64,000 nt of DNA from NCBI RefSeq assembly GCF_040538665.1, contig NZ_JBEWXT010000001.1, positions 248,001 through 312,000 on the forward strand. The letters are read 5' to 3'. A model generated the notes under the pieces. That model searched no databases and was not told the DNA's origin. It worked only from the letters and a program-made list of their open reading frames with translations. Shown here one piece after another: positions 45,638-50,958 of this stretch; the first letter of the stretch is position 1; each line of letters begins with the position of its first letter. The stretch comes from Aureibaculum sp. 2308TA14-22. Lineage in GTDB: Bacteria; Bacteroidota; Bacteroidia; Flavobacteriales; Flavobacteriaceae. Both the position numbers and the translations under genes were made by a program.

Positions 45638-47215
45638 ATGAACATTCCAACACAATATAAAATTTCAGCACCATTACATCAAAACACCTATTTGATTGAT
45701 GGCGAATTAAAAGAATGGACAGGCAAAACTACTGAAGTGTTTTCCACCATTTCTTCTACGGAAGATTATAAACCTACATTGTTAGGTACAATTCCTTATA
45801 TGGAAACAGAAACAGCTGTTGAGGCTCTTGAAGCGGCTTGTAATGCTTATGATAAAGGTCAAGGGGTATGGCCCACAATGAAAGTTGAAGATCGTATTGC
45901 TTGTATGGAAAAATTCGTTGAATTAATGAAAAAGGAAAGAGGCCAAGTAGTAAAATATTTACTATGGGAGATTGGTAAATCTACTGATCATGCTCAAAAA
46001 GAATTTGATAGAACCATAGATTATATATACGATACTATCGAAGAGTACAAACAAATGGATCGAAATAGTGCCCGCTTTGAGAAAAACAGCGGTATCAATG
46101 CACATATTAAAAGAGGACCTTTGGGCGTTGTCTTCTGTTTAGGGCCTTATAATTATCCTCTAAACGAAACTTTTTGCTTGCTAATTCCTGCATTGATAAT
46201 GGGAAATACAACGGTTGTTAAACCGGCAAAGCATGGAGTTTTATTGCTATCTCCATTATTGCAGCTATTTAAAGAATGTTTCCCGAAAGGTGTAGTAAAC
46301 ATTATTTATGGAAGAGGTAGCGTAGTAGCGTCACCAATTATGGAAACAGGTAAAGTTGATGTATTGGCGTTAATAGGGCATAGTACATCGGCCAATGCGT
46401 TGCAAAAGTTACACCCAAAATCAAACAGATTGCGATTGGTATTAGGTTTGGAAGCAAAAAATCCGGCGATTATTTTACCAGATGTAGATTTAGAACTAGC
46501 GGTTGACGAATGTGTTGCGGGTACATTGGCTTATAACGGACAACGTTGTACCGCGTTGAAGATTTTGTACGTTCATGAAGATATCGCTGAAGAGTTTAAC
46601 AAACGTTTTTGTGAAAAAGTAGATGCTTTAAAATTTGCCAATCCTTGGGACATGGATGTAGATTTAACACCCTTACCTGAACCTGGAAAGGTCAATTATA
46701 TAAAAGAATTGATTGCCGATGCCAAAGAAAAAGGGGCCACTATAATTAATAAAAAAGGTGGGGAAGAATATGATAATTTTATATTCCCAGCGGTATTATA
46801 CCCTGTGTTTAAAGACATGCGAGTGTTTGCAGAGGAACAGTTTGGACCGGTAGTGCCCATTCGCACTTTTAAAGATCTTCAAGAGCCTTTAGATGAAATA
46901 GCCGATTCTAATTATGGGCAACAAGTCAGTTTATTTGGTAAAGATGTAAATCAATTATCTAAATTGATTGATGCTTGTGTTAATTTAGTGTGCAGAGTAA
47001 ATCTAAACAGTTTATGCCAACGTGGCCCAGATGTATTTCCTTTTTCTGGTCGTAAAGATTCTGCGGTTTCAACCTTAAGTGTACACGACGCTTTACGTTC
47101 TTTTTCTGTCAGAACTTTTGTAGCTTCAAAGGATAATGATTACAACAACAAAATTTTACAAGATTTGCTGGATTCTAAGAAGTCGAATTTCATAAGTACG
47201 GATTATATTTTGTAG
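45638..47215 (+). CDS. gapN: NADP-dependent non-phosphorylating glyceraldehyde-3-phosphate dehydrogenase type aldehyde dehydrogenase
   Basis: A 525-residue aldehyde dehydrogenase. The catalytic Cys304 is in NGQRCTALK and the general base Glu272 in [10 protein letters not shown]; the cofactor-binding core has [22 protein letters not shown] and [13 protein letters not shown]. The closest group by motif is GapN (oxidises glyceraldehyde 3-phosphate directly to 3-phosphoglycerate while making NADPH). Substrate preference cannot be proved from motifs, so a related aldehyde substrate is possible. It stands alone; a 195-nt gap precedes it. Confidence 0.85.
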
Positions 47216-47319: not shown

Positions 47320-49371
47320 ATGAAAAGGAAATTTACAGCAAATTCACGATTAATAAATGATCTTTTTACTAGATATTTGAATACGTATTTTGCTTTTTCT
47401 GAATTGTTAAATAATTCAATTCAAGCTTCTGCTGAAAATGTTTGGATTGATATAACCTATTCTAAACCGAGTGAGGTAACTGATAAAGTTATAAAGAAAA
47501 TTGTGGTTAAAGATGATGGTGTTGGGGTTCACATAAATGATGTCAAAGAAAGGTTATTGAATATTGGTACGGCAAATAAAGTTGACGGTAAAGGGATTGG
47601 AAGGTTTGCTTCGCTTCAAATTGGTAAAAAAGTAGAAATTGAAACCATTGCCTATGACTCTGATGATGATACATACTCAAAAATTAATATACCATTAGAA
47701 TATTCCGTTTTCAGCTCTGCACAGAATATTGATGAAATTGAAATAAATACAATAGAAGAAATTTTGGTAGGAGAAAATTACGATACATATTATCAGGTAA
47801 CAATTACTCAACTGTTTGATTACGTTGAAACTGGGAATTCTATTCGAAACAAAATCACAGCAAAATTCTTAAAAGAGAATCTTCCTTTAGCTCTTTTTGA
47901 GAGTTATCCAATGCTAATATTTAACAAAAAGGTTAATTTTCATTTGAATAATAATGTAATAAATCCTAGTAGTTTTATTGATGGAGATCCTACCAATAAA
48001 ATTATTGATTATAAAGATAGAAAAGGGGTAACACATCAAATAGAACTAAACGCTATCAAACTGAAGTCTACATTAGATAAAAGAAAAGTCTTTGTTACTT
48101 CAACAAATGCTGGAGTCAAAACCATAGTTACAGGATATGAATTTGATGCTGATTGGCTAAATCCTCAAATCGGAGATTGGTTTGTTTATTTGAATATTGA
48201 TACTCTGCCAACAAATTTGTTCAGAAACTTAGATATGGGAGATCTAGACCCAGTTGTATCTCATTTCAGAAAACATGTTAAAATAATAGTAAGCGACTTT
48301 TTTAGAGTACGAAATCAACAGTACGAGAATTTTCAAGATAAATTACATTCTGATAAATATTACCCATATAAGAAACATAACGGCAGGCAAAAGATTATTT
48401 CTAAAACTATAGTATTTGATAAATTAGCTTATATAGTTGAAGAAAAATATCAGGTTCTTCAGAATGATCAAAAATTGCGTGAAGTTGTTTACCCTCTTAT
48501 TGATAGGGCAATAGGAAATACAGATATTACTGAAGTATTAAAGTCAATACTAAAATTGAGTGATGACTTTATAGGAAAATTCAGACAAATAATGGACCGA
48601 GCAGATTTAGAGGATCTATTATTATTTAATGAAAAGGTTGTAAATAAACTACAATCAATTTCTTTTTTGGAAAAATTAATTTATACAGATATATCTAAAC
48701 ACGTTAAAGAGAGGACGGAATTGCACAAAATACTTGAAAATATGTTGTGGGTTTTTGGCGAAGAATATAATGATTCAACAAATTTGTTATCAGATAAATC
48801 ACTTTATAAGAATTTATTCGACCTAAGAAATAAAGTAATGAAAACTGAAATTTCTAAGAAAAAAAATGACAACGTCATAGAAAGTGTAAAAGGTAAATCT
48901 AAATCAATAACGGACTTATTCTTATACAGTGAAAAAATTATTGATGAAGACAAAAAAGAAGTTTTGATAGTTGAATTGAAAGCTCCAAGAGTTAAAATTG
49001 GGCATAAAGAAATTGAACAAGCTCAAAAATATGCGTACGAAATTGAGAATCAAGGTAGTTTTTCAGATCAATTACATTATACTATTATCTTGGTAAGTTC
49101 AGATTTAAATGCACGAGGTAAACAGCAATTTAAAGGGGCTAATAAAGCGTTTAATCATCCATATTTGTTTTGGAAGAATGAAAATGAAAATATTTCAATT
49201 TGGATTGTAAAATGGTCTGATTTATTTTATAATTTGAAACGTAAGCTTAATTATATGTCGAAAGGATTAAAAATAAAGGATAATTCAGTTCTTGAAACTA
49301 TAAAGGAAGAATTTTCGACACTTGAATTAACGAAGTTAAGATCGCATTTAAAAAAAGTATCGGTGAACTAG
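47320..49371 (+). CDS. GHKL ATPase fused to a PD-(D/E)XK nuclease-like domain (candidate defence protein)
   Basis: A 683-residue protein of no family I can name. Residues 1-200 are a GHKL (Hsp90/MutL/histidine-kinase-type) ATPase: N box SELLNNSIQAS (Asn31/32), G1 box KDDGVG (65-69) and GKGIGRFASLQIG (90-102). A long middle region follows, helical from about 340 to 520. Residues about 525-640 look like a PD-(D/E)XK nuclease: Asp532 in ITDLFLY, Glu552-x-Lys554 in LIVELKAP and Gln569 in IEQAQKYA. There is no signal peptide, kinase His-box or receiver domain, so it is not a signalling kinase. GHKL-nuclease fusions are known in restriction-like systems (MORC/MutL-like families), and the nuclease part resembles Shedu-type (DUF4263) domains. 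The gene appears more AT-rich than its neighbours and is in a single-gene setting, suggesting transfer. Confidence 0.7.
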   Translation: MKRKFTANSRLINDLFTRYLNTYFAFSELLNNSIQASAENVWIDITYSKPSEVTDKVIKKIVVKDDGVGVHINDVKERLLNIGTANKVDGKGIGRFASLQIGKKVEIETIAYDSDDDTYSKINIPLEYSVFSSAQNIDEIEINTIEEILVGENYDTYYQVTITQLFDYVETGNSIRNKITAKFLKENLPLALFESYPMLIFNKKVNFHLNNNVINPSSFIDGDPTNKIIDYKDRKGVTHQIELNAIKLKSTLDKRKVFVTSTNAGVKTIVTGYEFDADWLNPQIGDWFVYLNIDTLPTNLFRNLDMGDLDPVVSHFRKHVKIIVSDFFRVRNQQYENFQDKLHSDKYYPYKKHNGRQKIISKTIVFDKLAYIVEEKYQVLQNDQKLREVVYPLIDRAIGNTDITEVLKSILKLSDDFIGKFRQIMDRADLEDLLLFNEKVVNKLQSISFLEKLIYTDISKHVKERTELHKILENMLWVFGEEYNDSTNLLSDKSLYKNLFDLRNKVMKTEISKKKNDNVIESVKGKSKSITDLFLYSEKIIDEDKKEVLIVELKAPRVKIGHKEIEQAQKYAYEIENQGSFSDQLHYTIILVSSDLNARGKQQFKGANKAFNHPYLFWKNENENISIWIVKWSDLFYNLKRKLNYMSKGLKIKDNSVLETIKEEFSTLELTKLRSHLKKVSVN

Positions 49372-50322: not shown

Positions 50323-50958
50323 ATGATTAAATACATTATAATATTAATATTCTTATCGTCCTTAATAGGTTGTTCCATAGAATCAAAAAAGATTACTCGC
50401 CATCCATTCGAAATTGATAAATCCATATCTGGAATTGATTTATTGGATAATGGATATAGGTGGATGCCAGGTGTTGATGTAATTCTTATTGGTAAAAAAA
50501 CAAAAGACACTTTAGACTATTATCAACTTGATTTTCCCGTTGAAGAAATTGATGAAGAAGAAGTGCTTGGTATTGAGGATTATGAAGAAGTTAAAATTCA
50601 AAATCACGACACAACATCTGTCGAATTAGAAGAAACAATTGACCCTCTTGATATGCCGGACTCCATTTACAAAAGGGAATGGATCTCAGACGAAGGGCTG
50701 TATAAAGAGATGTTTAGTAAGGGAATACCAACCACTAGGTATTATTATATCACAATGACTAAGGCAAATCTTGAAAGTTTTATAAAAACTCTAGATGCCT
50801 TAAAATATAAATTGAAAAGAAAGAATGAAATTAGCGATTATTATATTGATGAATTTTCAATTGTAAATTTACAGTCAAAAGATACGTTTAGATGTAGCGT
50901 AAAGGCATTAGAGGATGGGAGATTAGAATTTATGTCTCAGATATCATTAGAAAATTGA
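50323..50958 (+). CDS. Hypothetical lipoprotein
   Basis: A 211-residue protein with a signal peptide ending in a lipobox (LIFLSSLIGC, Cys near residue 17). The mature part is acidic (EEIDEEEVLGIEDYEEV) and has no motif I recognise. The segment FIKTLDALKYKLKR may be a short helix. It lies 71 nt after the membrane protein and 15 nt before the pseudouridine synthase gene. It is probably anchored in the inner or outer membrane; its role is unknown. Confidence 0.65.
   Translation: MIKYIIILIFLSSLIGCSIESKKITRHPFEIDKSISGIDLLDNGYRWMPGVDVILIGKKTKDTLDYYQLDFPVEEIDEEEVLGIEDYEEVKIQNHDTTSVELEETIDPLDMPDSIYKREWISDEGLYKEMFSKGIPTTRYYYITMTKANLESFIKTLDALKYKLKRKNEISDYYIDEFSIVNLQSKDTFRCSVKALEDGRLEFMSQISLEN

Follow-up and report, generated by a model that had tools for sequence, protein, structure and literature searches.

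The window analysed here is a stretch of 64,000 nucleotides from Aureibaculum sp. 2308TA14-22 (contig NZ_JBEWXT010000001.1, positions 248,001 to 312,000 of the forward strand), and its subject is a gene for a protein of 683 amino acids (aa), termed P0001, in which a GHKL ATPase is joined to a predicted C-terminal nuclease. A first-pass annotation made from the sequence had placed the open reading frame (ORF) at 47320..49371 on the + strand, which proved exact, and had proposed a candidate single-gene defence protein. The ORF is intact, with an ATG start and no internal stop codons. It is preceded by gapN, which ends at 47215, 104 bases before the gene, and followed after 79 bases by an ORF of 266 aa for which no Pfam match was found; the remaining flanking genes in the window are of housekeeping type, and as far as these neighbours show the gene does sit alone, as had been stated. 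Its G+C content of 28.4% is the lowest among the 43 window ORFs of at least 150 aa (mean 34.3%, s.d. 2.7), in agreement with the AT-richness remarked on earlier. There is no integrase beside the gene and no tRNA within the window, the repeats found in the window resemble short chance matches and include nothing notable, and at E 0.001 the genome contains no match to P0001 other than itself. The gene was probably acquired horizontally, as a stand-alone unit.

Two predicted catalytic halves in one protein

Residue conservation was counted in alignment A7, which comprises 32 rows from 31 proteins (one of them in two pieces, some of them fragments), counts referring to rows with a letter at the position, and in alignment A1, which comprises 17 rows (P0001 and its relatives from genome contigs). 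Residue numbers are those of P0001 throughout, and the following features were delineated:

47320..49371, + strand: whole gene, GHKL ATPase-nuclease of 683 aa (ORF and Pfam)
47320..47814, + strand: GHKL (Bergerat) ATPase domain, about residues 1-165, limits approximate (HATPase_c_3; fold match to MORC3, Hsp90 and MutL)
47401..47415, + strand: N box, E28 to N32 (E28 in 27/27 rows, N32 in 28/28)
47512..47526, + strand: G1-type box D65-x-G67-x-G69 (each 28/28)
47593..47604, + strand: G2-type box G92-x-G94-R95 (each 28/28)
47935..48324, + strand: S5-type transducer domain, about residues 206-335, limits approximate (structural alignment)
48259..48744, + strand: helical middle region, about residues 314-475, approximate and overlapping its neighbours (full-length model of low to moderate confidence)
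48682..49269, + strand: predicted C-terminal PD-(D/E)XK nuclease domain, about residues 455-650 (model, fold matches, HSDR_N_2)
48709..48711, + strand: E464, first acid of the E-D-ExK set (31/31 in A7; invariant in A1)
48913..48915, + strand: D532 of the putative nuclease site (31/31 in A7; invariant in A1)
48973..48981, + strand: E552-x-K554 of the putative nuclease site (each 31/31 in A7; invariant in A1)
49018..49020, + strand: Q567, conserved helix glutamine (31/31 in A7; invariant in A1)

The N-terminal half is matched by the Pfam family HATPase_c_3 over residues 24-146 (E 9e-14), and the structural alignment of the P0001 model to MORC3, MutL and TRAP1 covers residues 6-335, that is, the ATPase together with the transducer. 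K87 is likewise present in 28/28 rows of A7. Since the ATP-binding residues are invariant, the ATPase appears to be active, as judged from its sequence. The intact GHKL boxes had been recognized in the first-pass annotation, but its choice of N31 as the asparagine to be mutated has to be corrected: position 31 is W in 22 of the 28 rows of A7 with a letter and the invariant asparagine is N32, which leaves E28 or N32 as the residue of choice, while E552 and K554, the other residues named for mutation, stand. Several other identities were considered for this half and rejected. A histidine kinase is contradicted by the score of HATPase_c (22.2 against a cut-off of 26.4 bits), by the lack of any kinase family at curated cut-offs, and by the 11-14 bits obtained with two kinase models whose cut-offs are 300 and 750; MutL proper (TIGR00585) scored 16.1 bits on the N-box region against 180, and MzaB scored 12 bits against 850.

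In the C-terminal half, the Pfam family HSDR_N_2 matches residues 526-578 with E 2.9e-5 and 24.6 bits, just under its cut-off of 25. Modelled alone (mean pLDDT 74.3, pTM 0.73), the domain adopts a PD-(D/E)XK fold, whose best matches in the Protein Data Bank (PDB) are EndoMS/NucS, with the Shedu proteins SduA 8ps4 and 8ti9 among the top eight; a family missing from such a comparison is not thereby excluded. The restriction-nuclease fold foreseen in the first-pass annotation is thus supported by structure prediction. Direct sequence matches to PDB entries were found neither for P0001 nor for the nuclease profile A3, and the profile of A1 matches GHKL proteins there through its N-terminal part. 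The predicted nuclease site is E-D-ExK (E464, D532, E552, K554) plus Q567, and W477, E481, Y571 and W632 are also present in 31/31 rows of A7. D532, E552 and K554 had been picked out correctly, but the glutamine had been taken to be Q569, a position occupied by Q in only 1 of the 31 rows, and E464 is an addition. The viral rows of A7 were retrieved by patterns including [TLY]WVFGEE and ELK, so that their E552 and K554 are conserved partly by construction; A1 was retrieved by the pattern WVFGEEYN, which carries no ELK bias, and the two WVFGEE-containing patterns also favour part of the conservation counted.

Known counterparts and the relation to Shedu

The architecture of P0001 has two precedents. 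The first is paraMORC3, which is described in the available text of Iyer, Abhiman and Aravind (2008, PMC2292703) as a GHKL domain, an S5 domain and a C-terminal domain of the restriction endonuclease (RE) fold with an E-D-ExK motif, sporadic in distribution and with a stand-alone subset found mainly in Proteobacteria and Bacteroidetes. P0001 shares the GHKL domain with intact ATP motifs, the S5 fold and the predicted C-terminal RE-fold E-D-ExK nuclease, and its family shares the wide and sporadic occurrence, either stand-alone or with restriction-modification (R-M) genes; no difference was found in this comparison, which was made by description and not with the founding sequences. The second is VcSduA of Vibrio cholerae WASA strains, which according to the available text of PMC12137116 (from which the definition of Shedu type I-D is also taken) acts against Drexlerviridae, loses its anti-phage activity upon either E27A (the GHKL glutamate) or K557A (the nuclease lysine), and yields growth curves that were taken to indicate direct restriction sparing the host. 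As described there, it is like P0001 a single protein with an N-terminal GHKL ATPase, a middle region and a C-terminal PD-(D/E)xK nuclease, and its E27 and K557 come in the same order as E28 and K554 of P0001 and at roughly the same distance (530 residues against 526). VcSduA is described with DUF4263, whereas P0001 has no match to the corresponding Pfam family PF14082, and the likeness is again drawn from description and not from aligned sequences. Through VcSduA the proposal of a candidate single-gene defence protein gains support, and P0001 itself may by analogy restrict phage.

A likeness to Shedu had been suggested in the first-pass annotation; the fold matches to SduA are compatible with it, but membership in DUF4263 is not borne out by Pfam, as PF14082 does not match P0001 at E up to 1 and is absent from the 11 Pfam families that the 17 members of A1 match at E 0.1. 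HSDR_N_2 matches 15 of these 17 members, the PADLOC model SduA only one (E 0.0047) and the PADLOC model REase_II nine (best E 4.6e-8); P0001 itself has no match in PADLOC-DB 2.0.0 at E up to 1. A link to Shedu is provided by a sister clade of GHKL-nuclease proteins, two of whose four members pass the PF14082 cut-off of 27 bits (L076 with 32.5 and L112 with 28.2, the others being L111 with 21.6 and L113 with 19.7), and to which the P0001 family aligns over 547 columns (E 3.1e-30). Comparison of nuclease profiles gave E 2.2e-14 between the P0001 family and the sister clade, E 5.2e-9 between the sister clade and nine classical SduA proteins, and, for the P0001 family and SduA directly, 89% probability and E 2.2e-6, with the later half of that alignment doubtful. 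The P0001 family also matches HSDR_N_2 over 61 columns (E 4.1e-9), SduA compared with HSDR_N_2 gave 1.4%, and the nine-protein SduA profile matches the Shedu structures 8ti8, 8ti9 and 8ps4. These comparisons suggest that the putative P0001 nuclease is a Shedu-like PD-(D/E)XK domain, intermediate between the SduA and HSDR_N types. On the other hand, a hidden Markov model of the nine classical SduA proteins matched no GHKL protein of the set at E up to 10, not even the PF14082-passing L076, which speaks against a close relationship with classical Shedu. L076 had no relative among the viral contigs, and in 198 genomes of the phylum its only relative at E 1e-40 was in its own genome.

P0001 therefore differs from Shedu SduA (PF14082; 8ps4, 8ti8, 8ti9) in the lack of a PF14082 score, in the GHKL ATPase as a presumed sensor, and in a core somewhat closer to HSDR_N_2 by profile and to EndoMS/NucS by fold. 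EndoMS/NucS is not known to carry a GHKL ATPase, and P0001 has no Pfam match to NucS_C. Nor is P0001 the HsdR subunit of a Type I restriction system, given the sub-threshold HSDR_N_2 score (24.6 vs 25 bits) and the absence of any matched helicase family. The C-terminal endonuclease of MutL has a fold unlike that of the P0001 nuclease, and eukaryotic MORC proteins are not known to have a C-terminal endonuclease. That the MutL endonuclease is of a different fold is also stated in the available text of PMC2292703. As a separate observation, the same genome encodes a 395-aa protein (G000:C1:2644984-2645412; locus L077, ORF 1435-2619, - strand) that scores 20.9 bits against the SduA_C cut-off of 27 and is possibly a diverged Shedu nuclease.

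Distribution, neighbourhoods and alternative roles

A scan of genome contigs yielded 22 relatives. Four of them, L002-L005 from Bacteroidota, show 49-52% identity and the other 18 show 21-33%; 14 of these 18 are, judging from their names, presumably Alphaproteobacteria. Scans of plasmids and phages gave 40 and 2 records, the latter being the Pasteurella phages Pmp3 and Pmp14, and viral contigs gave 18 loci, one of which (L050) is 32% identical over residues 1-678. Thirteen of 296 genomes of the phylum match at E 1e-20, seven over the full length (the own genome counted) and six with the ATPase end only. In a tree of 40 selected rows P0001 groups with L002, L003 and L050 at starred support, while the placement of L076 and L092, which are on very long branches, is unreliable. 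L092 (301-2178, - strand) is a relative with a HATPase_c_3 domain and a C-terminal region that the nuclease profile does not match; it may be an ATPase lacking the nuclease. In the GHKL proteins of L088 (1489-3402, + strand), L089 (202-2133, - strand) and L091 (1435-3393, + strand) the ExK lysine is seemingly replaced by M (ELMRP / EFMRP), and their C-terminal stretch is possibly an altered nuclease-like domain.

Closer to home the gene is missing: a homologue at E 1e-10 was found in none of 16 congeners (6 of the 16 less than 90% complete) and in none of 43 more distant relatives. Thirteen of the 16 congeners possess gapN, and in none of the ten gapN regions examined does the gene lie downstream of it, with ilvA before gapN in seven of the ten within the stretch taken. 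As the first-pass annotation had expected of a defence gene, it is not fixed at its locus, and these absences rule out a housekeeping gene. In L093, three ORFs without homologues in the window separate gapN from the homologue of the window gene at 50323, and across L093-L102 the gene sets 3' of gapN vary among subgroups of the genus, which looks like a variable site. The same absences bear on whether P0001 might be a DNA repair or mismatch enzyme, a MutL/MORC-like ATPase that applies its own EndoMS/NucS-like nuclease to mismatches or branched DNA of the host. We regard this role as quite unlikely, as one would expect such an enzyme to be conserved, relatives reside on plasmids and phages and some of them beside restriction or Abi genes, and the fold match to EndoMS/NucS is silent on which DNA is recognized.

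Mobile carriage itself suggests another role, that of a phage- or plasmid-borne competition nuclease, which excludes rival elements and protects the cell only incidentally. It is consistent with the relatives in Pmp3, Pmp14 and the 18 viral contigs, and with one plasmid relative placed between conjugation genes; we consider it improbable for the window copy, given that no integrase adjoins it and that the window has no tRNA and no notable repeats, and excluding rivals to protect the carrier would in any case use the same biochemistry as defence. In Pmp3 (L106, 4975-6933) the family member, of 652 aa, appears to be cargo and is flanked by two anti-repressor genes.

Genes of defence systems lie near several relatives. 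Neighbours were compared for L002-L004 of the closest relatives, L005 ending at a contig edge. L002 is followed by KwaB, AbiJ_NTD4 and Hypoth_Ymh, L003 has a NucS_C protein immediately downstream, and L004 has an Eco57I methylase, GmrSD_N, HEPN and a BsuBI/PstI endonuclease just upstream; in L004 (10001-12027, Sediminibacterium) the family gene is itself split into two ORFs of 226 and 432 aa. Annotated neighbourhoods were examined for 10 of the 42 records, and five of them contain named defence or R-M genes, although no control regions were counted and the figures do not show enrichment: Psychrobacter (Drt2, dcm, LlaMI), Streptomyces (N-6 methylase), Phaeobacter (type ISP R-M), Deinococcus (methyltransferase) and Bradyrhizobium (abortive infection gene). 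The other five (Pasteurella phage, Mesorhizobium, Sinorhizobium, Alisedimentitalea, Methylobacterium) have none, and three of them carry genes of toxin-antitoxin type. The R-M genes adjoining L004 and the Psychrobacter and Phaeobacter relatives could mean that P0001 is the effector or ATPase part of an R-M system with its methylase encoded at another site in the genome, and unlinked R-M partners are raised as a possibility for paraMORC3 in the available text of PMC2292703. We nevertheless give this arrangement a very small chance: the adjoining R-M type varies by locus (BsuBI, LlaMI, type ISP, N-6 methylase), which resembles shared defence islands and not one conserved partner, and no methylase lies beside the gene in the window, the rest of the genome not having been searched for methylases.

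Proposed mode of action and significance

Taken together, P0001 is quite likely an anti-phage nuclease of the same kind as paraMORC3 and VcSduA, encoded by a stand-alone gene that was probably acquired by horizontal transfer. Its domain make-up, its invariant catalytic residues and its full-length homology to the PF14082-bearing sister clade are established, as are the patchy distribution of its family and the presence of defence genes near several relatives. From the biology of MORC, MutL and Hsp90 and from VcSduA we infer that ATP binding probably brings about dimerisation through the GHKL ATPase and the S5 transducer, and that these two domains and the helical middle region would make up a clamp by which DNA is inspected or enclosed. 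The trigger would be a foreign DNA state, most likely free ends or an intermediate of recombination or replication, upon which ATP binding or hydrolysis would position or release the PD-(D/E)XK nuclease to cut the phage DNA in a metal-dependent manner. For comparison, EcSduA, according to the available text of a review (PMC12904381), binds DNA ends and nicks at a fixed distance.

The design of P0001 is not new, given paraMORC3 and VcSduA, and what is added is a distinct Bacteroidota branch; no prior description of P0001 or of this branch was found among the open-licence literature matches listed, and the available text of PMC13092281 contains nothing on the family. A further, unlikely reading makes the clade of P0001, with its Bacteroidota members (about 50% identity) and a viral-contig member (32%), a defence branch of its own, whose MORC/MutL-like clamp with an EndoMS/NucS-like nuclease would read structures in the DNA of infecting phages, for example mismatches, branches or intermediates of recombination, and not ends as in classical Shedu. 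If true, it would join DNA inspection of the mismatch-repair type to phage restriction in one protein.

As a probable anti-phage nuclease of the paraMORC3/VcSduA kind, P0001 extends an experimentally validated but little-studied design, in which a GHKL ATPase gates a nuclease, to a distinct branch of Bacteroidota. Since it is matched neither by the Pfam Shedu model nor by PADLOC-DB 2.0.0, such proteins may be undercounted. Precise residues can now be named for studying how MORC/MutL-type ATPases control a nuclease, which bears also on the MORC proteins of eukaryotes.
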